DNA of 64,000 nt from Gemmatimonadetes bacterium SCN 70-22. GTDB taxonomy: Bacteria > Gemmatimonadota > Gemmatimonadetes > Gemmatimonadales > Gemmatimonadaceae. The notes beneath the pieces were generated by a model. The model saw nothing but the letters and a program-made list of their open reading frames with translations. It made no database searches and was not told the origin of the DNA. The DNA is taken from the NCBI GenBank assembly GCA_001724275.1, contig MEDZ01000015.1, forward strand, positions 1 through 64,000, written 5' to 3'. Within the stretch, counting starts at the first letter, position 1. Every line of letters starts with the position of its first letter. The position numbers and the translations under genes were made by a program. Below are positions 2,861 through 16,745 of this stretch, one piece after another.

Positions 2861-4945
2861 CTACTTCGGCTGTAATCGCCGCTGCGAGACCCGCCCGGCC
2901 AGCCAACCCTCGGCAAGCAGGACCAGTGTCGCCACGACCAGAAGGTACCACCAGATCGACTGTCGGCGCTCCTGCTCCACCAGGCGCTGGGCCGGGTCGG
3001 CCGTCCCCTGGCTCACGACCACGTCGTCGTCCGGTGCGAGGGCGTTGACGAGCCGCACGGGATCGAAGGTCGCGAACTCGAGCTCGGCCGGGGCGGGGTT
3101 GGCCGCGACCAGGCGCGGCCGCTCGTTAGGTACGCCGGCGCGCCGCATCTCGTACCACCCCGCCTGGCGCAGCTCCAGCGCCGGCGGCGCCCCCGCGCCC
3201 CCGACGGCGATCCGCTCCCCATCCGGCGTGCGGACCGTGAAGCGCTCCCCTCCATTCGACGCGTTGCGGTCCCCTGCCGCGTCGGTGAGGTCGACCGACT
3301 CACCGACCGCGTACGACCCGCGCTCCGGACGGTAGTCCGCGGCATATCGCACCAGCTGGTGCAGGAAGGGGAGGTAGACGGCCTGTCGCGGAAGGTCGTT
3401 CCACACTCCGTCCAGGCTGCTCCCCCACGTGATCACCCGGCCGCGCCCCACCCGGTGCTCGGCGAGGGCCACGGCCCCGTCGTCGAACCGGGCCAGGGCC
3501 CCGCTTTCCACCTGCAGCGGGCGATACCGGAAGAAACGGGCAGACGAGAGGTCGCCGCTGCGGGCGGCTCCAAAGATCGAAAGCGCTGGGTGCGTGCGAT
3601 CGAGGTACCCGAGGACGCCGCCACGACCGCCCAGCCGATCGACCGGGTCCCCAACGGCGCCCGGCAGGAGGGCCCCGCCCTCCCCCGCGAAGGCGCGCGA
3701 CGAGGCCCGCTCGCCTAACGCGCTGAGTATCCCGCCGCCGCCTCGCACGAACTCGAGCAGCGGCGCGCCACCGATGCCCGCGGGGACCCCCGCGTCGTTC
3801 AGCAGCACCAGTTGTCGCCCCACCAGGTCCGCCGCCGTGACGCTCCGCGATCTCGCCACTCGCACCTCGAAGGTGGGCTGGTCGCCGATCGCCAGGGCCC
3901 GGCGCACGAAGATCCCTCGTTCCGCGGGTGCATCCGAGTGCTCGACCAGCAGGACGCCAATGCTCGGCGGCCGGCGAAGCCGGAACAGGAACGCGTCGTC
4001 ACCGGGGAAGGCATCGGCGTCGAGCACGACGCGAGCGGGGGCGCCCTCGCCTGCCACCGTCACCGGGGCGAACGTCACCGTCCCCCCACCATCGCTCGGC
4101 AGGTCGATGCGCCGTTCGTCCACCGTGCGCCCGTTCACCTCCAGGCGTGCCGCGACACCCTTCACCGCCGGCCCGGCGTTCACCACGCGGGCGCTCACGA
4201 CCACGCGGTCGCGCGGCGCGCTCGCATCGCGACGCAAGTCAACCGACCGGACGGAGCGATCGGCCACCTCCCCGGCGCCGACGTCGACCGGGACGATCTT
4301 CGTCCCCGGCGGGAGCGTCACATCGTCGTCCAGGTCCCACGCGCTGCGCTGGAAATCGCTCACCACCATGACCTCCTTCAGCGGGAGCGCCGTCCCCGCG
4401 AGGATCCGCCTGGCGAGCGCCACCGCCGGGGCAAGGCGCGTCCCGGCATCGCTCGGCATGATGGAATCCAGCGCGGAGCGCAGCGCGGCGCCATCGGCCG
4501 TCGCCTCGTTCACCGCCGTCGCCCGCACGTCGAAGGGGACCAGCGTCAGTCGATCGCCCTTCCCCAACGAGCCGAAGCGGTCACGCACGGCCCGCTGGGC
4601 GGACGTCCACCGCTCACCGTGTCGCATGCTCATGGAGCGATCGAGCAGCACGACCACCTCGGTTCCGCCCCGCCCTCCCGGCGATGCCGCCGCCGTGCGC
4701 GCCAGCACCGGACGCATGAACGCCGCCGCCAGGAGCGCGATGATCAGGCATCGCGCGGCGAACAGGAGCCAGTCCCGGATCCGCTGGCGGCTGGCATGCT
4801 GGTAGGGCGTGCGCTGCACGAACATCAGCGAGGGGAAGGACACCGCCTCCTTCCGTTCCCTGTGCACCAGGTGCACCAGCAGCGGCACGACAATCGCCGC
4901 CAGTGCGCCTGCGAACAGCGGGGCCAGGAAGGAGAACCGCATCAC
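2861..4945 (-). CDS. BatA-type membrane protein with von Willebrand A domain
   Basis: This 694-residue protein starts with two transmembrane helices (about 6-25 and 60-80) carrying the BatA (aerotolerance regulator N-terminal) signature, including the conserved LVHLVHR stretch after helix 1. A vWA domain follows; its metal-ion site reads D102-x-S104-x-S106 (LLDRSMSM). The middle contains Ig-like and glutamine-amidotransferase-like segments, and a final transmembrane helix lies near residue 675. Such proteins are thought to present a Mg-binding vWA surface to MoxR-type ATPases at the membrane. Its start overlaps the DUF58 gene stop by 4 nt (ATGA), so translation is probably coupled. Leu410 is encoded by the rare TTA codon in the CGTTAGGC motif at 3713-3720. 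Confidence 0.85.
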   Translation of the reverse strand: MMRFSFLAPLFAGALAAIVVPLLVHLVHRERKEAVSFPSLMFVQRTPYQHASRQRIRDWLLFAARCLIIALLAAAFMRPVLARTAAASPGGRGGTEVVVLLDRSMSMRHGERWTSAQRAVRDRFGSLGKGDRLTLVPFDVRATAVNEATADGAALRSALDSIMPSDAGTRLAPAVALARRILAGTALPLKEVMVVSDFQRSAWDLDDDVTLPPGTKIVPVDVGAGEVADRSVRSVDLRRDASAPRDRVVVSARVVNAGPAVKGVAARLEVNGRTVDERRIDLPSDGGGTVTFAPVTVAGEGAPARVVLDADAFPGDDAFLFRLRRPPSIGVLLVEHSDAPAERGIFVRRALAIGDQPTFEVRVARSRSVTAADLVGRQLVLLNDAGVPAGIGGAPLLEFVRGGGGILSALGERASSRAFAGEGGALLPGAVGDPVDRLGGRGGVLGYLDRTHPALSIFGAARSGDLSSARFFRYRPLQVESGALARFDDGAVALAEHRVGRGRVITWGSSLDGVWNDLPRQAVYLPFLHQLVRYAADYRPERGSYAVGESVDLTDAAGDRNASNGGERFTVRTPDGERIAVGGAGAPPALELRQAGWYEMRRAGVPNERPRLVAANPAPAELEFATFDPVRLVNALAPDDDVVVSQGTADPAQRLVEQERRQSIWWYLLVVATLVLLAEGWLAGRVSQRRLQPK

Positions 4946-5877
4946 TTCACCGTCCGCAGCCGCTCGCGCCGCAGCAGGTACTCGAACAGGAGCGCATCGA
5001 GTGGCTGCGACGTGTCGACGAAGGTGTAGTCGATCCGGTGCTCGCCGAGGCGCCGCTCCAGCGTGGCGATGTGGTCGGTGACCAGGCGCTGGTACGCCGG
5101 GCGCAGGCGCGCTGGCACGACGGGGAGCCGCACGCCGCTCTCCGCATCCTCGAAGGTCGCCGCTTCCTCGAAGTCGAAGTGGCGTTCCCGCGGATCGAGG
5201 AAGTGCATCACGACGACGTCATGCCCAGCGTCTCGCAGCGGGCCGAGGGCCGCGATGACCTTGTCCGGCTCCTCGTACAGGTCGGAGATGACCAGCATGA
5301 AGCCGCGCCGGCGCTGGCTCTCGGCGACCTTGGCGAGCGGGCGCGCCAGCGCGCCCGTCCCTCGCGGGACGGCGCGGTCGATGGCGTGCAGCACCTGCGG
5401 CAGGTGCTTGGCCGATGGCGGTACGACATCCACGATGTCGTCATCGAACGTCGCGATGCCGACCCGGTCACGCTGGCGATGGGAGAAGTAGGCCAGCGAG
5501 GCCGCGAGATACTTGGCGTACTCCAGTTTCGTCAGCGCGGTCGAGCCGAATCCCATCGACCCCGAGACGTCGAGCAGCACCATGAAGTTGGTGTTCGTGT
5601 CGGCCTCGTACTCCTTCAGGAAGTAGCGCTCGGTGCGCGCGTACACCCGCCAGTCGATGTGGCGGATGTCGTCACCCGGCATGTACTGGCGGTGCTCGGC
5701 GAAGTCGGTCGAGAAGCCGAGGTGCGGCGAGCGATGCAACCCCGAGATGAAGCCCTCCACCACCCAGCGGGCCACGAGCTCGAGGTTCCCCACGCGCGCG
5801 AGCGCCTCGGGGTCGATGAAGCGGACCCCGGGAAGCGCGTCGCGGCCGGACGACGATGGCGAAGCGGGCGACGGCAT
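4942..5877 (-). CDS. DUF58 domain protein (vWA-like)
   Basis: This 311-residue soluble protein has the DUF58 core: the segment HRQYMPGDDIRHIDWRVYAR near residues 62-81 is the family signature, and a vWA-like site (LLDVSGSMGF) follows near residue 100. DUF58 proteins are nearly always encoded next to MoxR ATPases and are regarded as their vWA partners or substrates-adaptors, for example in assembly or maturation of metalloenzymes or membrane complexes. The gene starts 3 nt after the MoxR stop and overlaps the BatA-type gene by 4 nt. Length is normal for the short DUF58 type without N-terminal membrane helices. Confidence 0.9.
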   Translation of the reverse strand: MPSPASPSSSGRDALPGVRFIDPEALARVGNLELVARWVVEGFISGLHRSPHLGFSTDFAEHRQYMPGDDIRHIDWRVYARTERYFLKEYEADTNTNFMVLLDVSGSMGFGSTALTKLEYAKYLAASLAYFSHRQRDRVGIATFDDDIVDVVPPSAKHLPQVLHAIDRAVPRGTGALARPLAKVAESQRRRGFMLVISDLYEEPDKVIAALGPLRDAGHDVVVMHFLDPRERHFDFEEAATFEDAESGVRLPVVPARLRPAYQRLVTDHIATLERRLGEHRIDYTFVDTSQPLDALLFEYLLRRERLRTVK

Positions 5878-5880
5878 GCG

Positions 5881-6918
<1,038 letters not shown>

Positions 6919-6930
6919 GGATCTCCTGGG

Positions 6931-7689
6931 TCAGTGCGTCATGGCGTACACGATGTAGTTCACCGCCAGCTTGTACGCCTCGTTGGTGAGCGAGATGGGG
7001 AGGAAGCCCTCGTCGGACCATTCCATGTAGTCGCCGATGTCATTGTTGTAGTTGGCGATCATCACCAGCCGCTTGGCCGGGTCGTTGTCCTCGAATGCGC
7101 CCCAGAACTCGGCCTTCACCCCGTAGTTGGGGTGGTCCATGTCCAGCGACTCGATGCGGAAGAACGAGTCGAAGATGGGATGAGACCGGTCCAGGCGCAC
7201 GAGCGTGAGGCCGGGGAACGCCTGGTGCCACCGCCGCTCGAAGTTGAACCAGTGCTGCCCGGCGAAGTCGTCGAAGATGAGGAACCCGCCCTTCTGCACG
7301 TACGCACGCACCCCGGCGAGTTCCTGCTCGTTCATCGACCAGAACCCCGGTTCCGACACGTAGGCGATCGGGTACTTGAAGAGCTCCGGATCGTCGAAGC
7401 CGAGGATGTTGCTCCCCTCGAGATACGGCTTCACCGTCGTGAGCTCCTCGAGGATCTTCATGAAGTGATTCTCGGCACGGGGGTAGTCGTGGTCCCACTT
7501 GAGGTCCCACCCTCCGCCCAGCGGCTCGAACTTCACGCGCACGAAGGTGAATCGCCCGTCGTAGGCGACGTTCGGATTCGGCGCGCGCCCGGGGCTCCCC
7601 CGCCGTCCGCCTCGGAAGCCCTGGGCGGCGAGGGTGAGCGCAGGGACGAGCATGATCGCGACCATCCACCAGCGGCGTCGGATCCTCAT
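6931..7689 (-). CDS. Secreted DUF4159 protein
   Basis: This 252-residue protein has a typical signal peptide (RIRRRW then a hydrophobic stretch ending at ALTLAAQG, cleavage about residue 23). A Gly/Arg-rich stretch follows, then the DUF4159 domain (starting FTFVRVKFE at about residue 48). That domain resembles a glutamine-amidotransferase/flavodoxin fold and lacks an obvious catalytic triad. DUF4159 is regularly found in MoxR/DUF58/DUF4175 clusters. The start overlaps the TPR-peptidase gene stop by 4 nt (ATGA). A periplasmic structural or sensing role in the MoxR system is an inference. Confidence 0.85.
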   Translation of the reverse strand: MRIRRRWWMVAIMLVPALTLAAQGFRGGRRGSPGRAPNPNVAYDGRFTFVRVKFEPLGGGWDLKWDHDYPRAENHFMKILEELTTVKPYLEGSNILGFDDPELFKYPIAYVSEPGFWSMNEQELAGVRAYVQKGGFLIFDDFAGQHWFNFERRWHQAFPGLTLVRLDRSHPIFDSFFRIESLDMDHPNYGVKAEFWGAFEDNDPAKRLVMIANYNNDIGDYMEWSDEGFLPISLTNEAYKLAVNYIVYAMTH

Positions 7690-10319
7690 GGGCGTCGCTC
7701 CCGCAGCGCCAGCAGCAATGCCTGCGCCTTCTCGAAGTTCGGGGCCAGGTCCAGCGTCCGCAGCACCTCCCGCCGCGCGGCGGCCACGTCGCCGGCGTCG
7801 GCGTACGCGCGCGCGAGCTGGTACATCGCTTCCACGCGATCGCTTGGGTCGAGCGCCAATACCGCCTGCCGTTCCCGGATGGCCAGCCCATGCCGGCTCG
7901 CCCGCCCCGCCCCCTCGGCCAGGCGTTCGTGCACGGACGCGTCGAACGGGGAGATGTACAACGCGCGCTCGAGTGCGGCGAGCGACGTGGCGGTATCGCC
8001 GCGCACTGCCGCCACGGCCGCCAGCTCGAGATTGGCCTCGTACGCCACCTCGCTTCGCTCGCTCATCGCCCGCAGCTCACGCAGCGCCGCCGCACTGTCG
8101 CCGCGTACCAGGTGGATGCGCGCGAGGGTGCGATACGGACTGTCCTCGCCAGCGTACCACGGAAAGAGCCCCTTGGCCCGCTCGAGCTCGCGGACGGCGC
8201 CGTCCCACTCCTGCCGCTCCGCGTACGACGTCGCTGCGCGCATCGCGTCGGCAAACGCGCCGCCCCATCGGATCTCCCCGTCGCGCTCGCCGCCACGCTC
8301 CAGCGCCACCGCCCCCAGCTCTCGCGCGAACCTTCCGCGCACATAGGCATCGAAGCGCGCATCGAGCGCCGCCAGGTCGAGTCCCATCACCTCGCGCATC
8401 GCCTGCGGGGTGCTCGCCCCGCGCCGGTAGGCCGCCAGCATCGCCCTGATGCCCGCGATCCCCTTCTCCTCCTCGATCCACTCGGCGACGAGCGACGCCT
8501 GATAGTACGACAGGACGACTTCCTGCGGGAAGCGCGGGCGCATGAAGCCGTCGTTCATGTGCGACGGCGGCGCGAGCATCCCGCCCTGGTAGGCCGCCAG
8601 GAACTCCGGGGTCACGTCGCTCCCCCACGACGGGCGCGCGCGTCGCTCCTCGTGCACCGACAGGCCTTCCGAGAACCAGCGCGGGACGCGATGATCGCTC
8701 GCGCCTAACGTGAAGGTATGCCCGAGCTCGTGCCAGAGCGTCGCCCCCCAGTTGAACTCGCCCACGCGCCGGGCCGCCGGCGAGTCCATCGCGATCACGG
8801 GCCCGAAGCAGACCCCCAGCGCCCCGAGCCCCGCCAGCCCCACCGTGCGGACCGAGAAGTCGGCGTGACTGCGGAAGAACTCGATGCGCACCGGCTCCGC
8901 CGGGCGATAGCCGTAGCGCGACGCGAGCGAATCGAACGCCTCCTCGGCCAGCGGCGCCACGTACAGCGACAAGAGCGGCGCGTCCTTCTTCTCGATCACG
9001 AAGGTGAAGCGCGGCGTCTGCACCTCGACATAGCCGTCGAAGGTGTCGAGCAGGTCGAGCGTGTTCTTCGCCCAGACGTCATAGGGATCGAGGGCGAAGG
9101 CCCGATCGAGGTTCGCGCGTCCTTCCGCCATGCGCCCGATGCGCAACTGGTTCACCCCCAGCAGGGCCAGGGCCCGCGCCGCCTTCGGGTCACGGGCCGC
9201 CCCCTGCTGGGCGAAGGCGACCGCCTGTCGGTACAGCCGATTCCTCGCCAGGACGTCGGCCAGCGTCACCTCCGCATCCGCTGCCCCCGGGAGCCGGGCG
9301 TGCGCCCGCGCGATGGCGCGTGTGAAGTTGGCCGAGTCGCCCGCGAGGAAGCGCGCCGCCGCCAGGGCGATGAGCGGCGACGGCGCCCCGGTGTCGGCCG
9401 CCAGCCCCCGGATCGCCTCGGCCGCGGCCTCGTCGTAGCGTTCGACGTCGATCAGGAGGAGCGCCGAGATCGCCCGCGCCTCGGGATCGCTCGGGTTGAC
9501 CTCGAGCGATTTCCTCACGAGGGTCGACGCGTCGCCCCGCCCGTCGAACGAGACCACGCGCGACATCCCCAGCAGCGCGCGGGGATGCCGCGGGTTGATG
9601 GCTAGCACTCCCTCGAACATCGCGCGGGCATCGGTGCCGTTGTACTTCTCGAGAAAGAGGAAGCCCAGCTCGGTGCGCGTGTCGAGGTTGGCGGAATCGC
9701 GGGCGATGGCCTCGTCGTACGCCGTGAGCGCGTCCTTGAACAGCTGCGGATCGTCGCGCCCGAGGTACCGGCAGGCGACGGCGACCGCGCGCAGCTCGTC
9801 GGCGGTGAGGCGCGTGCGGTTCGCGTTGTAGGCGCCGATGAAGGTGTCGAATGCGCGCATGGCCTCGTCGCGCTGGCCGGCCTCGAGGGCCAGCGTCGCC
9901 AGTTGCAATCGGGCCGTGAGTGAGTCCTTCCCGCCCAGCGCGCGCTGATAGGCCTCCCGCGCTTCCGACGCGAGTCCGCGGGCGCGGAGGGCGTCGCCGG
10001 TGACGACGTCGGCGTCGACGGCGCCGCCGGAGGCGCGCCGGAAGGCCTCGCCTGCGGCGGCCGCGTCGGCGTATCGCCCCACGTCCATCAGTGCCCGCAC
10101 CAGCAGCCGGGCCGCGGGGGCGTGTGCACTGTCACGCGCCAGTGCCTGCCGCGCGAGGCTAATCGACTGGTCGTACGCCCCGCGCTGCCTCGCCTCCGCC
10201 GCGCGGGCCGACAGGTGCACCGGATCGGCGTCCTGCGCGCACGCGACCATGGGGACCACCGCCGCCAGCAATGCCGTCGCGACTCGCCAGGCGCGCCAAC
10301 CGCACGTCGCTCGCGTCAT
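7686..10319 (-). CDS. Secreted TPR protein with peptidase-MA-like gluzincin domain
   Basis: This 877-residue protein begins with a signal peptide (about 1-28) whose end reads VVPMVACAQ, possibly a lipobox with Cys27. Tetratricopeptide repeats fill roughly residues 30-430. A zinc-metallopeptidase domain follows: HELGH at 530-534 supplies two His ligands and the catalytic Glu, and E551 in WFSEGLSVHEE is the expected third ligand, as in gluzincins of the peptidase MA type. More TPR repeats (about 690-875) close the protein. It therefore looks like an active envelope protease on a TPR scaffold. It overlaps both neighbouring genes by 4 nt. Leu538, next to the active site, uses a TTA codon in a CGTTAGGC motif (8703-8710). 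Confidence 0.85.
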   Translation of the reverse strand: MTRATCGWRAWRVATALLAAVVPMVACAQDADPVHLSARAAEARQRGAYDQSISLARQALARDSAHAPAARLLVRALMDVGRYADAAAAGEAFRRASGGAVDADVVTGDALRARGLASEAREAYQRALGGKDSLTARLQLATLALEAGQRDEAMRAFDTFIGAYNANRTRLTADELRAVAVACRYLGRDDPQLFKDALTAYDEAIARDSANLDTRTELGFLFLEKYNGTDARAMFEGVLAINPRHPRALLGMSRVVSFDGRGDASTLVRKSLEVNPSDPEARAISALLLIDVERYDEAAAEAIRGLAADTGAPSPLIALAAARFLAGDSANFTRAIARAHARLPGAADAEVTLADVLARNRLYRQAVAFAQQGAARDPKAARALALLGVNQLRIGRMAEGRANLDRAFALDPYDVWAKNTLDLLDTFDGYVEVQTPRFTFVIEKKDAPLLSLYVAPLAEEAFDSLASRYGYRPAEPVRIEFFRSHADFSVRTVGLAGLGALGVCFGPVIAMDSPAARRVGEFNWGATLWHELGHTFTLGASDHRVPRWFSEGLSVHEERRARPSWGSDVTPEFLAAYQGGMLAPPSHMNDGFMRPRFPQEVVLSYYQASLVAEWIEEEKGIAGIRAMLAAYRRGASTPQAMREVMGLDLAALDARFDAYVRGRFARELGAVALERGGERDGEIRWGGAFADAMRAATSYAERQEWDGAVRELERAKGLFPWYAGEDSPYRTLARIHLVRGDSAAALRELRAMSERSEVAYEANLELAAVAAVRGDTATSLAALERALYISPFDASVHERLAEGAGRASRHGLAIRERQAVLALDPSDRVEAMYQLARAYADAGDVAAARREVLRTLDLAPNFEKAQALLLALRERRP

Positions 10320-11362
10320 GGTCGCCGCCCCTCCAGCGCGCGAAGGGCGCGCGTCCTCTCGGCGAGCTCGATCATCAGCGGCTCGAGCGCCTTCTGGTAC
10401 TCATCCTCGCGCATCGCCGTGCGCCGGGCCCGTAGCTGCTCGATCCGCCCCTCGATCTCCCGCCGCTCGGCCACCAACCGTGCGACGCGCGGATCGCCCA
10501 CCGCCGTCGCCCCTCCCCGCGGTTCCAGGAAGGTCGTGCGCGCGCGAGGCCCATCCGGCCCTCGCTCGCTCGCATCGCCGTGCCCCACGCCGTCGCCGTC
10601 GTCGTCCAGCACGGCGTGCTCGGTGGCGAGGCGATTCCCCTGCTCGAATACCCGCTCCACTTCGTGGCGGGCGTAGGTGAAGGCCTCGAGCAGGTTCACG
10701 CGTCCATCCTTGTCGCTGTCGGCCCCATCCTGCGTGAGCGCCGCCACGAAGTGCGCGGGAAAGAGCGTCGCGTTCTGCTCGCGACCCGAGCGGGTCGCGG
10801 CGATAATGGTGCGATTGGGCGCCGAGAGCACCCTGACGAAGTCGCCGCTGGCGCTGGTGGTGTTCACGAAGACGACCGCGACGTCGCGCAGCGGCGCGAG
10901 CGCCGTCCGGAAGTCCTCGGCGGAGAGGTCAGGGCCGGGGACGTTGAAGCGCGCGGTGGCGTCCTGCGTGGAGCCATGCCCGAAGAGGATGATCACCAGC
11001 CGGTCGCCTGGGCGCGAGGATGCCACCAGTCGTGCGAGGTGGTGCAACACGTTGTCGCGCGTCGAGCGCCCGCGCACGCCGGCACGCGTCGAGTCTTCCC
11101 CGAGCACGGTGACGAGAGAATCCGGGACGCCGAAGCGAGCGGTGGCGGCGCGGGCGATGGTGGCAGCCCACCCGTGGAACGCCTCGGCGAGGCGTTTCTC
11201 TCCGCCGACCCCGACGACGACGAGGAAGGCGGTGCGCGGGGACTCGGCAACTGCTGCGGGGGGCGGTGCCTGTGCCGCCGCAGTGGCGTGGGGGGCCCCC
11301 CCCGATAACAACGCTACCAGCACGCCCCCCCAGGCGCCGTACCATTTCCGCGCAGGCCTCAT
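10316..11362 (-). CDS. Secreted caspase-fold protein lacking the catalytic Cys, with EF-hand-like loop
   Basis: With the ATG at 11362 the product has 348 residues and a clean signal peptide (about 1-31). The caspase/C13-like core starts with the strand AFLVVVGVGG. The His loop is intact (ILFGHGS, H129), but where active relatives have the nucleophilic Cys (DAC-SG or QACRG type) this protein reads VNTTSASGDF, residues 166-175, with Thr instead. So proteolysis is not expected. A DxDxDG loop ending in Glu (residues 215-226) has EF-hand spacing and may bind Ca. The C-terminal 80 residues are helical and charged. An alternative in-frame ATG at 11434 overlaps the upstream stop (TGATG) and adds 24 residues, which would bury the signal peptide; the GGGAG site before 11362 favours the shorter form. 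Confidence 0.75.
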   Translation of the reverse strand: MRPARKWYGAWGGVLVALLSGGAPHATAAAQAPPPAAVAESPRTAFLVVVGVGGEKRLAEAFHGWAATIARAATARFGVPDSLVTVLGEDSTRAGVRGRSTRDNVLHHLARLVASSRPGDRLVIILFGHGSTQDATARFNVPGPDLSAEDFRTALAPLRDVAVVFVNTTSASGDFVRVLSAPNRTIIAATRSGREQNATLFPAHFVAALTQDGADSDKDGRVNLLEAFTYARHEVERVFEQGNRLATEHAVLDDDGDGVGHGDASERGPDGPRARTTFLEPRGGATAVGDPRVARLVAERREIEGRIEQLRARRTAMREDEYQKALEPLMIELAERTRALRALEGRRP

Positions 11363-11433
11363 CGCCCTCGCTCCCATGCCGGTCGGCTTCACGCCGCAGC
11401 CCGTTGTCACGCCGACTCCCTTCACCATACCCA

Positions 11434-13725
11434 TCACGCCACCCCCCGCCGCCGCCGCAGCGCCCACTCCGCGCCTAACGCCGACAACAGCAGCACCAGC
11501 AGCGCCGGCATGTCCCACAGGTCCTTCCTCTCCACCACCGTCACTCCGCTTGCGCTGTACTGCAGGTCCCTCGCCACGTCCAGCGCGCGCTCGGCCGGGT
11601 AGTAGCGTCCCCCCGTCTCCTCGGCAAGCTGCCGCAACAGCGCCGGTCGCATCTCGGCGCCGAAATACTCCGCCGCCGGCGGCGCCACGCGCACGAACGC
11701 CGGCTCCGCCAGCACCGTATCGCGCCCGACTACCGCTCGCAGTCGCACCTCGTGCACCCCGTTCCCCTCCGGGACGTAGGTCGTCCGGTACTCCCCATCG
11801 CGCTCGACCGCCCACTCCAGCGCCACGTCCTGTGTGACACCGGATGCGGTGGTGATGGTCCCTGCCACCGTGGCCCCATTCGCCCGCAGGAATGCCGAGT
11901 CGCTCACCTCGGCGCGGACGGCGATCCCCTCGCCCGGGCCGCTCTCTTCCGCCACCAGCGGCTCCACCCGGTCGGGCACGTCGCTCACCAGCCAGCGCAA
12001 CATCTGGCGCCAGAACGTCTCGTGCGTCTGGTCGTCGACCGCGATCGCGGCATCCATCTGCCAGAGCCACGAATCCTGTGCCGCAAACACGATCGCCTTG
12101 CCGCGGCCATAGCGCTGGAACGCCAGCAGCGGACGCGTCGTGCCGCCGTCAGCGGTCATCCCGTCCAGCAGCACCGTCGCCCCCGGCTTGGGCCGTCCCA
12201 GCCGGTTGACCGACGTCAGCGGCGGCAGCGCCTCCCACCGGGCGCGCGTCGCGCTGTCGGTCGCCGCGAGCTGCAATGCGGGGTGTCCGCTCCCCGCCCC
12301 GGTCGGCCGCGCGCGCAGCGCCGTGACGACCGCGGCATCGCCCGGCACCCCCTGCAGTTCCAGTGGGAGCGCGTCGCTCACCGCCGTCCCACCGTACCCT
12401 CCCTCGCCCAGGGCATCGCGTCCCCCCAACAGGAGCAACCCGCCCCCGCGCTCGCCGACGAAGTCCGCGAGCATCCGAAGCTGGTCGCCCGTGAAGAACG
12501 CCGCCTCGACGCTCCCCAGCACGACCGCGCGATAGGCGAACAATTCCTCGCGCGTGCGGGGGAAGCCGGCCGCCAGCTCGAGCGAATCGTCCACACCAAG
12601 GCGGAGGAACTTGTCGCGAGAGGAACGGAGGAGCGTGACCAACTGGATGTTGCCGTCCTCCTCCACCGCCCGGCGAAGGAACTTGAGCTCGAAGCGCGGC
12701 TCTCCCTCCACGTAGAGGATCTTCTCGCGTCGGTCGCGTACCGCCACCAGCGTCGCGCGCGCATTGTTCTCGGCAATCAGTTCGCCCGGCTGCACCGGAA
12801 CCTTGACCTCGAGCAGCCGCGCGCCCACCTCGCTGGCGGGGACGCGAATACGGACCGACACCGCCTCCCCGTCGCGCGGCAGCACCGCCGTCGCCGTTCC
12901 CACGATCCGCCCCGAGTCCTCCACCACCACCGGGATCCGCGCGCCGCCGTAGCCGCGCTGCACCAGCACCACCTGCACGTACAGCGAGGCGTCGCGCAGC
13001 AACGTGCGCGGCGCCTCCACCCGGGCCACTTCCACGTCGCGCTCGAAGCGCTCGCGCCCGATCCCCACCGCATACACCGGAACGCGGCGTGCCCGCAGGG
13101 AAAGCAGCTGCTCGGTGAGTCCGGTCTCCCCCGGTGTCGTCGCGGAGTTGTCGGCCCCATCGCTCAGCAGGACCACGCCAGCGGTCGGCACCCCCGTCAG
13201 GTCGTCCTCCACGCGAAGGAGTGACGATGCCAGCCTGGTGCGCGTCCCGTCGAATCGAATGCCCGACGCATCCGCGAGGCGCCCGCCCCCTCCCAGCCGA
13301 AAGACCCGCAACTGGTAGCGACCGGCCAACGCCCGGAGGAGCGCCGAATCGCTCCCTCCCGCCAGGTGCATCACGATGTCGCGGCGCGCCCCGCCGTCCA
13401 GGTCGCGTACCGCCATGCTGCGCGAGTCGTCCACCACGACCGCCACCACGTTGCGCTGCGGGATCGAACTGCTGAGCACGAGGACCGGGCGCGCCACGGC
13501 CACCGCGAACAGGGCGATCGCCGTGGCCCGGAGCGTCACCAGCGTCCATCGCGTGGCACGGGACAGCTCACCGGGATGGCGAAGGTACGCCGCGGTGGCG
13601 GCCCCGATCGCCCCCGCGGCGAACAGCGCGATCACCCACGCCGGGATCGGCGCGTCGAACCCCAGGCGTCCCTGCGCGAAGGCGAAGGGACGAAACTTGA
13701 ACAGCAGTTCGACCAGTCGATCCAA
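11434..13725 (-). CDS. Membrane protein with vWA and glutamine-amidotransferase-like domains
   Basis: This 763-residue protein starts at TTG 13725 behind a strong GAGGGG site and is probably the first gene of the eight-gene MoxR operon. Two transmembrane helices (about 28-48 and 60-82) precede a vWA domain whose metal site reads DDSRSMAV (about 97-104). A class I glutamine-amidotransferase-like domain follows near residues 400-490 (AVVLGSVEAAFFTGDQL and a Gly-rich GGGLLLLGGRDALGEGG). A last helix lies at about 742-758. Proteins of this build are common next to MoxR/DUF58. The 258 nt before it (13726-13983) must hold the operon promoter, but I see no convincing -35/-10 pair there. One CGTTAGGC motif with a TTA codon lies near the 3' end (11473-11480). 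Confidence 0.83.
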   Translation of the reverse strand: MDRLVELLFKFRPFAFAQGRLGFDAPIPAWVIALFAAGAIGAATAAYLRHPGELSRATRWTLVTLRATAIALFAVAVARPVLVLSSSIPQRNVVAVVVDDSRSMAVRDLDGGARRDIVMHLAGGSDSALLRALAGRYQLRVFRLGGGGRLADASGIRFDGTRTRLASSLLRVEDDLTGVPTAGVVLLSDGADNSATTPGETGLTEQLLSLRARRVPVYAVGIGRERFERDVEVARVEAPRTLLRDASLYVQVVLVQRGYGGARIPVVVEDSGRIVGTATAVLPRDGEAVSVRIRVPASEVGARLLEVKVPVQPGELIAENNARATLVAVRDRREKILYVEGEPRFELKFLRRAVEEDGNIQLVTLLRSSRDKFLRLGVDDSLELAAGFPRTREELFAYRAVVLGSVEAAFFTGDQLRMLADFVGERGGGLLLLGGRDALGEGGYGGTAVSDALPLELQGVPGDAAVVTALRARPTGAGSGHPALQLAATDSATRARWEALPPLTSVNRLGRPKPGATVLLDGMTADGGTTRPLLAFQRYGRGKAIVFAAQDSWLWQMDAAIAVDDQTHETFWRQMLRWLVSDVPDRVEPLVAEESGPGEGIAVRAEVSDSAFLRANGATVAGTITTASGVTQDVALEWAVERDGEYRTTYVPEGNGVHEVRLRAVVGRDTVLAEPAFVRVAPPAAEYFGAEMRPALLRQLAEETGGRYYPAERALDVARDLQYSASGVTVVERKDLWDMPALLVLLLSALGAEWALRRRRGVA

Positions 13726-13983
13726 GCGCGCCCCCCCTCGCCATCGGCGTTTGGTCGATCCCCGAGTGCACGATGTACGTACGAACCGGTGGAACGTTCC
13801 GCTGGGGCACCGGGCGGCGCCAGCACCGCCCCTCCCACGCCACGCCCGTCATCGCCCACGCGTCCCCGCGCTCCAACGTGCGCAGGCTCAGGGCGCTCCG
13901 CCCGCTCAAGGGGACGAGCCGCTTCGCCAATCCCACGACGGGAGGGGGTGGCCGACGAGGCGCTACGCCCCGTCCGCGGGTCG

Positions 13984-14460
13984 TTAGGCGACCGCCCCGC
14001 GCGCCTCGTCCAGCACGATCCGGCGCACCGCCTCCGTCCGATAGGCGAAGATCCGGCGCAGCTGCCGCTTCACCAGCGGGAGCGCGATGTCGCCCAGTGG
14101 GGCCAACGGAAGCCGGTACCGGACCTCATCATCGATGAACGTCCCCCCTTGCCCGTCGGGGCGGAATCGGTGGGTGTGGTGCCATAGCGCGTATGGCCCC
14201 TCGATCTGCTCGTCCACGAATGCGTGCGGAGGGTCCCACGTCGAGATGAGGGTACGCCACCGCATCGGGACGCCGTGAAGCCGGATCGTGTAGTCGATGA
14301 GCGTCCCCTCGTGCATGGCGATGGGGAGGGGCGTCCGGATGGCGAAGCCAAGTTCAGGCGGGGTGATCCGCCCCAGGTTCTCCGCCCGGGCGAAGAACTG
14401 GAAGACCTGCTCGATCGCGATGGGAAGGTGCAGTGAAGCGGTCAGTCGATGCGTCGGCAT
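13984..14460 (-). CDS. SRPBCC (START-like) family protein
   Basis: This 158-residue protein has the SRPBCC hydrophobic-ligand-cavity fold: the opening pattern ([20 protein letters not shown], then a predicted helix containing ENLGRITPP) and the HTHRF strand are typical of the polyketide-cyclase/CDP-paratose-epimerase-like subgroup. It is cytoplasmic, with no signal peptide. The ligand cannot be told from sequence. The gene stands alone, with a terminator-like stem-loop upstream (14508-14531) separating it from the next minus-strand gene. Its TAA stop lies inside a CGTTAGGC motif read from the opposite strand (13982-13989). Confidence 0.8.
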
Positions 14461-15209: not shown

Positions 15210-16745
15210 ATGCCCCTCCCCGAATTCATCGAAGAGCTCGAGCTCCTCGTCCGCTCCCGTTATGCACTCATCGTGGTCGACACGTGGGAGTACGAGCGCG
15301 CGACCGAGGTCCTGCGGCACGTCGCCTCCCGCCTCTCGCTGCACTACTTCGAGTGGCGGCGCTCCAAGGGCGTGCGGCGCGGGAGCGCTCCGGGCGACCC
15401 CTTCGCCGATGAGACCGCCCTCCCGACGCAGGCCCTCCGGCACGTGGAGCGGGAGGGGGCCGGCATCTACCACTTCCCAGCGCTCGACGCACACCTCGGC
15501 GACCCGGAAGTGGTCGCCCAACTCCATGACGTGGTCGATCGCTTCGCCACGCGACGCGGGGCGATCGTCATCAGCGGTGGCGACGTCCGGCTCCCGGAGT
15601 CGCTCCGCCCCCACGCCATCGTGGTCTCCCTCCCGTCGCCGGAGCCGGAGGAATATCGCGCCCTCCTGGAGCGCGTGGTCCGCGACCATGCGGCTCGAAT
15701 GCCGGTGCGAGTCGACCTCACTCCGACCGATCGCGCTCGCCTCCTGCACAATCTCGCCGGGCTCTCGCTGACCGAGGCGGAGAAGGTTCTCACCCGCCTG
15801 ATCATGACCGACGGCGCGCTGTCCGCGCTCGACATCCCACGAGTGACGGCGGCGAAGCGCCAGGCGGTGGAGCAGGACGGGCTGCTCGAATACTGGCCCA
15901 CCGAGACGGGCATGTCCCAGGTGGCGGGGCTGGCGGGACTGAAGAGTTGGTTGGCACGTCGCCGGGGCGCCGTCCTCGAGCCCGATCGCGCCAGCGCCTT
16001 CGGCCTCCCCTTCCCCAAGGGGATCCTCCTCCTCGGCGTTCCGGGGTGTGGCAAGAGCCTGTGCGCCAAGTCGGTCGCGCATGAGTGGGGGCTCCCCCTC
16101 CTTCGGCTCGACCCCGGCCTGTTGTACGACAAGTACGTCGGCGACAGCGAGAAGAACTTCAAACGCGCGCTCCGGACCGCTGAGCGCATGGCGCCCATCG
16201 TCCTCTGGATCGACGAGCTCGAGAAGGCCTTCGCCGCGTCGTCCGGTGAGCACGACGGCGGCGTGTCGCGACGTGTCTTCGGCTCGTTCCTCTCCTGGCT
16301 GCAGGACCGGCGCGGCGACGTGTTCGTCGTCGCCACCGCCAACGATGTCTCGTCGCTCCCGCCGGAGTTCATTCGCAAGGGGCGCTTCGACGAGGTCTTC
16401 TTCGTCGACCTCCCGCGCGCCGCCGCGCGTCGGGAGATCTTCGAGATCCACCTGCGCAGGCGCGGGTGCGATCCTTCCGCCTTCGCGCTCGACCAGCTCG
16501 CTGCCGCCTCCGATGGCTTCAGCGGCGCCGAGATCGAGCAGGCCATCGTCTCCGCGCTCTACGACGCCTTCAGCGCGGGGAGCGCGCTGGCACATGAGCG
16601 CGTCGAACACGAACTGCGCGCCACCCGTCCCCTCTCTCGCACCATGTCCGAGCCGCTGGCCGCCCTGCGATCGTGGGCGCGGGACCGGACCGTGCACGCG
16701 GATGGCGAAGCACCACCCCTCTCACGCCCGGCGCTCGTGACCTGA
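15210..16745 (+). CDS. Ycf46-like AAA+ ATPase
   Basis: This 511-residue protein has an N-terminal domain (1-200) opening with a LVRSRYALIVVDTWEYER motif, typical of the Ycf46 family of cyanobacteria, plastids and many bacteria. An AAA+ core follows: Walker A GVPGCGKS (about 276-283), Walker B IVLWIDELEKAF (about 331-342), and an Arg-finger region KGRFDEVFFVDLP (about 390). Ycf46 relatives are thought to be regulatory or chaperone ATPases; some are linked to carbon-uptake control, but the role outside phototrophs is unknown. The start follows a C-rich leader with no clear ribosome-binding site. It faces idi, convergent across only 9 nt. Confidence 0.82.
   Translation: MPLPEFIEELELLVRSRYALIVVDTWEYERATEVLRHVASRLSLHYFEWRRSKGVRRGSAPGDPFADETALPTQALRHVEREGAGIYHFPALDAHLGDPEVVAQLHDVVDRFATRRGAIVISGGDVRLPESLRPHAIVVSLPSPEPEEYRALLERVVRDHAARMPVRVDLTPTDRARLLHNLAGLSLTEAEKVLTRLIMTDGALSALDIPRVTAAKRQAVEQDGLLEYWPTETGMSQVAGLAGLKSWLARRRGAVLEPDRASAFGLPFPKGILLLGVPGCGKSLCAKSVAHEWGLPLLRLDPGLLYDKYVGDSEKNFKRALRTAERMAPIVLWIDELEKAFAASSGEHDGGVSRRVFGSFLSWLQDRRGDVFVVATANDVSSLPPEFIRKGRFDEVFFVDLPRAAARREIFEIHLRRRGCDPSAFALDQLAAASDGFSGAEIEQAIVSALYDAFSAGSALAHERVEHELRATRPLSRTMSEPLAALRSWARDRTVHADGEAPPLSRPALVT

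Follow-up and report, generated by a model that had tools for sequence, protein, structure and literature searches.

Caspase-fold proteins lacking the catalytic cysteine have been described in family C14, where pseudo-orthocaspases and pseudo-metacaspases carry Ser at the Cys position and are presumed to be inactive, according to the available sections of two reports (PMC6426788, PMC3501461). As far as the available text of the first of these goes, pseudo-orthocaspases are mostly of the YS (Tyr-Ser) form, in which both residues are changed, and they are absent from RCII-bearing Gemmatimonadetes, while TbMC1 and TbMC4 of T. brucei represent the HS and YS forms (PMC6426788). The corresponding sections of the second report state that, of the putative metacaspases from bacteria analysed in 2012, 84% retain the dyad and that Ser is the most frequent replacement of Cys; the one Gemmatimonadetes sequence counted there lacks the dyad, and it may or may not belong to the family considered here (PMC3501461). 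Another relevant system is the Bat operon, in which MoxR, DUF58 and vWA proteins are encoded together. The function of Bat proteins is unsettled, and no role in oxidative stress was found in Leptospira biflexa, as given in the available part of that study (PMC3557215).

Against this background, we analysed a gene in a stretch of 64,000 nucleotides (the window) from Gemmatimonadetes bacterium SCN 70-22 (contig MEDZ01000015.1). The frame list and the translation give an open frame of 348 amino acids on the minus strand (10316-11362), and the translation, Pfam, profile alignment with hhalign, a structure model and a census of relatives together describe its product as a C13-like caspase-fold protein with His129, Ser170 at the Cys position, an EF-type loop at residues 215-226 and a C-terminal helical tail. 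His129 (codon 10976-10978) lies in FGHGS, whose GHG motif spans residues 128-130 (10973-10981, minus strand). The stretch VNTTSASGDF (residues 166-175) contains S-A-S-G (residues 170-173; 10844-10855, minus strand), and the loop DSDKDGRVNLLE (residues 215-226; 10685-10720, minus strand) has the form D215-x-D217-x-D219-G-x-V-x-x-x-E226. An earlier note, which read the protein as caspase-like without the nucleophilic Cys, had named FGHGS with His129, VNTTSASGDF and the four acidic loop residues, and all of these letters are indeed present. The N-terminus is hydrophobic, ends in ATAAAQ and by eye resembles a signal peptide; the protein is probably exported. At E <= 0.001 its own genome contains one match, the gene itself. 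A scan for promoters and terminators over 11300-14000 found none. Further along the protein, an almost invariant Glu248-His249 (Glu248 in 176/178 and His249 in 166/178 distinct relatives) is followed by a second acidic loop-like stretch, LDDDGDGVG (within residues 247-262; window 10577-10624, minus strand), whose DGDG part is missing in some lineages that retain the Glu-His.

The partial Pfam match of the window protein points to peptidase C13 (PF01650), with 21.6 bits at a cut-off of 22.8. The only other match at E <= 1 is unrelated (E 0.29), and the C14 p20 model PF00656 gives none at that threshold; among 30 family members, PF00656 matches one (E 0.013). A relative belonging to a different family of the class (G233, L100) scores 35.2 bits, above the PF01650 cut-off, which one further match (G185, L101) also exceeds; at E <= 0.01, PF01650 matches 19 of the 63 members aligned. 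In a structure model built from an alignment of two sequences (the window protein and L031; mean pLDDT 59.7), strands and helices follow each other as in the caspase fold. Of its best 25 structural matches, 23 are legumains or asparaginyl endopeptidases, with Z up to 11.8 and superpositions of about 180 residues at about 4 angstrom, and the remaining two are caspase-6 (11.5) and caspase-3 (11.2); after the legumains, the matches are to caspases and metacaspases. The VIA structural matches cover model residues 1-207 of 311. Foldseek alone returned one match at E <= 0.001, a metacaspase near the threshold (best E 9.3e-4), and a sequence profile run against the PDB reached metacaspases, in alignments that end at the His and span only the first half. 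The caspase-hemoglobinase fold that characterizes C13 is thus recovered both by the legumain matches and by the profile alignment. Although the model alone is insufficient, the Pfam, PDB-profile and structural matches taken together make a C13-like fold likely; a caspase/hemoglobinase fold closest to legumain (C13) is the most likely assignment. Nevertheless, the dependence of the fold on weak sequence matches and a model of pLDDT 59.7 counts against the role that we prefer below, that of a pseudoprotease subunit.

Which residue stands in place of the cysteine is best seen from the motif register, in which the active C-x-S-G corresponds to S170-A-S172-G173. With hhalign (probability 97.9 local, 99.0 global), 30 members were aligned to 25 C14 domains of the phylum that retain the Cys; Ser170 fell on this Cys, and Thr168 and Thr169 fell on the two residues preceding it. 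These C14 domains come from the 29 loci of a PF00656 search (L107-L135, of which L117, L120 and L135 have no pattern match), with L102 and L105 also used for the loop counts and shuffles; having been selected by Cys-demanding patterns, they are uninformative on the frequency of Cys in C14 proteins. The same register holds for both motifs when the G233 protein is set against human legumain ('vntaSasg' over 'yieaCesg'), an alignment that is weak alone, since phmmer with the domain gives E 0.84, behind four unrelated chains, and with the whole frame loses the match. We conclude from these alignments that Ser170, and not Thr168 or Thr169, occupies the Cys position. The earlier note had put Thr168 or Thr169 there and had asked whether orthologues share the Thr. 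They do not: both positions vary freely among 178 relatives (28 and 26 changes on a tree), which rules out either residue as the nucleophile. It had also proposed alignment to C13 and C14 together with structure prediction; the former yielded the Ser170 register, whereas the model is of low confidence exactly at the site (pLDDT below 50 at model residues 132-138, that is, protein residues 169-175), and this loop is too uncertain for the site geometry to be read.

To place the window protein among its relatives, we took a census of 197 rows, which reduce to 178 proteins distinct over residues 100-240, all from Gemmatimonadota; one fragment (L074) and the second piece of L088 were dropped as too short. 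Position 170 is Ser in 142, Thr in 32, Pro in three, Asp in one and Cys in none (codons AGY 136, TCN 6, ACN 32). Position 129 is His in 177 and Gln in one, and position 172 is Ser in all 178. Smaller samples were cleaner, with Ser in 31/31 rows and then in 60/63. The absence of Cys from the site is family-wide in these sequences, and the reading of a caspase-type fold without the nucleophilic Cys but with the His retained is supported. No column aligned to a residue of the window protein has Cys in three or more of the 178, so that no conserved substitute Cys was seen. Since Cys occurs in none of the relatives, a mutation private to the window copy is ruled out. By the same census, a decaying pseudogene or sequencing accident is refuted: the open frame, the 178 Cys-less relatives, the strong column conservation and the conserved operon leave it a negligible chance. 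Cys-bearing members of the family were not found among the 178 from Gemmatimonadota. A scan of genome contigs gave a single locus (L031), from a Gemmatimonadetes bacterium; among other collections, plasmids gave only Gemmatirosa, and viral contigs and six genomes of another class of the phylum gave none. Searches with PF01650 and PF00656 returned Cys-bearing paralogues that are more distant. The member from Gemmatirosa kalamazoonensis is encoded on a replicon of 1.1 Mb in the plasmid collection (NZ_CP007129.1, 747133-747870) and matches in two reading frames. A literature search found no publication on the family, which is no proof of absence.

The pattern of substitution at the site bears directly on whether the protein is catalytic. 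We counted the fewest changes per column on a quick tree from which columns 129 and 170 had been omitted: eight at 170, one at 129 and none at 172, 215 or 226, against a median of 34 over residues 45-240. Changes between Ser/Thr and other residues at 170 number only three, accounting for four proteins without a hydroxyl (three Pro, one Asp). It is tempting to speculate that these proteins are working serine/threonine hydrolases or ligases on a caspase fold, in which His129 would activate Ser170 (or Thr) and the calcium loop would order the site. The fixation of His (177/178) and of Ser or Thr (174/178), together with the small number of tree changes, speaks for such an enzyme; at the same time, this is more constraint than a dead site needs, and it counts against a pseudoprotease. 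So does one protein (L160) in which Gln replaces His129 and Pro occupies position 170, as if both had been lost together, although this is a single case, and the other two Pro proteins and the Asp protein retain His129. The few changes on the tree indicate that a hydroxyl is favoured at 170, yet four proteins do without it. That lineages persist without Ser, as 32 Thr and four non-hydroxyl residues among the 178 testify, is counted in favour of a pseudoprotease. As a nucleophile, Ser can seldom be exchanged for Thr or Thr for Ser, and their mixture at 170 weighs against a hydrolase. To our knowledge, no caspase-fold enzyme with a Ser nucleophile has been described, which weighs the same way. 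In addition, 26 of the 196 columns (45-240) change less often than 170, a set of Ser, Thr and Asp would also fit a purely structural turn or helix-cap role, and the model gives low confidence over the site residues. Taking both sides into account, we favour the pseudoprotease over the hydrolase, which we regard as a serious but clearly less probable alternative.

In its calcium-type loop, the window protein contains the canonical EF-hand pattern DxDxDGx[VIL]xxxE, and shuffling residues 174-313 produced the strict EF pattern 3 times in 20000, in agreement with the earlier note, which had called the loop perfectly formed. The loop is conserved: apart from one gap at D215, D215 and E226 are invariant (177/177 readable), D217 is Asp in 170 and Asn in seven, and D219 is Asp in 168 and Asn in nine. 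No Pfam EF-hand model matches the window protein at E <= 1. The conservation of the loop, and its position, which the low-confidence model puts between two helices, are what one would expect if the fold had been kept for calcium-dependent binding alone rather than for cleavage, as the earlier note had proposed. However, EF-like loops, scored by a looser pattern than that used for the window protein, also lie 49-67 residues past CxSG in 6 of the 25 distinct C14 domains of the phylum that bear Cys; in the window protein the distance is 41. Over 2000 rounds, tails that had been shuffled gave a mean of 0.1/25 and at most 2/25, and never 6. Because similar loops accompany an intact Cys, the loop does not indicate an exchange of cleavage for calcium binding, and on sequence grounds it argues neither for nor against catalysis. 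Thus, of the earlier proposal the conserved loop stands, the supposed switch from cleavage to binding is weakly supported, and calcium binding as the sole reason for keeping the fold seems improbable to us. The available portion of one review states that metacaspases need calcium for activity, with the calcium sites in another loop of p10, and that bacterial orthocaspases are regarded as calcium-independent (PMC5756287); both points speak against an easy reading of the present loop.

The genomic context is the other conserved property. All operon genes lie on the minus strand. Upstream is a gene for a 763 aa protein (11434-13725) having a glutamine-amidotransferase-like domain above the Pfam cut-off and weak, below cut-off matches to vWA and BatA/two-anchor N-terminal models (vWA/GATase). 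Downstream, the C13-like stop overlaps, as ATGA, the start of a TPR protein gene (7686-10319), which has HELGH in its sequence and falls just below the cut-off for Peptidase_MA_2 (31.1 of 32.4 bits). Then come a DUF4159 protein (6931-7689) and a MoxR-type AAA ATPase (5881-6918), both identified by Pfam and operon comparison, and, by operon comparison, a DUF58 protein (4942-5877) and a BatA/vWA protein (2861-4945). Another AAA ATPase gene, at 15210-16745, faces the other way, on the plus strand. The operon was compared across 40 loci (40 genomes), all selected as carriers of the C13-like gene. Most of them have the order vWA/GATase, C13-like, TPR/peptidase MA, DUF4159, MoxR, DUF58, BatA on one strand; the genes are present in 38, 40, 39, 34, 36, 36 and 35 loci, respectively. 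In one locus (L063) the DUF4159 gene precedes the TPR gene. Among the cases of missing genes are contig ends (L066, L097), perhaps a cut at the edge of the retrieved stretch (L098) and apparently real breaks (L068, L070, L074). In L074 (G259), only a 187 aa fragment of the C13-like gene is present, and the 17 kb locus yielded neither vWA/GATase nor MoxR, as in a broken or degenerate operon. A second DUF4159-type gene lies upstream of vWA/GATase in 14 of the 40 loci (L060-L064, L067-L071, L075, L094, L098, L099).

The C13-like gene occurs in 84 of 179 genomes of the window's family (E <= 0.001) and the vWA/GATase gene in 89 (E <= 1e-20), and all of the 84 are among the 89, as judged by comparing the lists by eye. 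In the five additional genomes (G034, G046, G082, G107, G157), the vWA/GATase gene was only partly recovered; in three of them, the recovered part sets in within 22 bases of a contig start. Across the phylum, a draw of 298 genomes included 150 with a profile match, two of them weak (G138, G302) and perhaps to other caspase homologues. In other words, about half of the Gemmatimonadota genomes sampled carry the gene.

Based on these observations, we propose the following scenario. The ancestor of the family would have carried Cys, and Ser, or Thr in several lineages, would have come to hold the nucleophilic position throughout. The protein would then no longer be a cysteine protease, and proteolysis would be lacking. 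Instead, it might act as a pseudoprotease subunit, a module stabilised by putative calcium binding that binds a peptide or a partner. Presumably exported, it could contact the co-encoded BatA-type vWA proteins to form a membrane or periplasmic machine, which the MoxR ATPase with DUF58 would drive or assemble. In our view, the most likely role, at somewhat better than an even chance, is that of a pseudoprotease subunit without proteolytic activity, stabilised by calcium, within an envelope MoxR-vWA machine. A bolder idea, which we hold to be rather unlikely, is that a Ser(Thr)170-His129 dyad, ordered by the calcium loop, replaced Cys-His and turned the protein into a naturally occurring hydrolase of the serine/threonine type, be it a protease, an esterase or a ligase, that serves this envelope machine. 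Shifts between Ser and Thr under strong constraint next to a fixed His amount to a natural experiment, which sets a hydroxyl nucleophile on a caspase fold against a binding module. The tight coupling to the MoxR-DUF58-BatA operon offers a handle on the function of these poorly understood operons. If the protein is only a pseudoprotease, it is another instance of a known trend.

How, then, does the family relate to known systems? With peptidase C13 (legumain, the GPI transamidase subunit; PF01650) it shares the fold order, the GHG His, the place of the CxSG-type motif and an A-T strand after the motif, and the partial Pfam match adds to this likeness. It differs in having Ser, Thr, Pro or Asp for Cys in 178/178 while retaining the catalytic His, as well as in its EF-type loop, C-terminal helical tail and operon with MoxR and vWA proteins. 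With the C14 pseudo-forms it shares the caspase fold and Ser at the Cys position, but the His is retained here and the window protein has no C14 match at E <= 1. As in Bat operons, MoxR, DUF58 and BatA-type genes lie together on one strand; the difference is a caspase-fold gene as a regular member. The MoxR-vWA ternary conflict systems with caspase domains, as presented in the available part of Kaur et al. 2020 (PMC7159879), likewise bring MoxR, vWA and components of the caspase superfamily together in a single neighbourhood. Unlike in those systems, inspection of the window operon revealed no VMAP-like third protein; the C13-like gene is conserved, its product is probably exported, and among the seven operon proteins PADLOC matched only MoxR, weakly, to IetA. 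A Ser at the Cys position is therefore already known from His-Ser caspase homologues elsewhere; what sets the present case apart is that the family is C13-like, combines His with Ser or Thr and, in the genomes covered here, occurs in a single phylum as part of a Bat-type operon.
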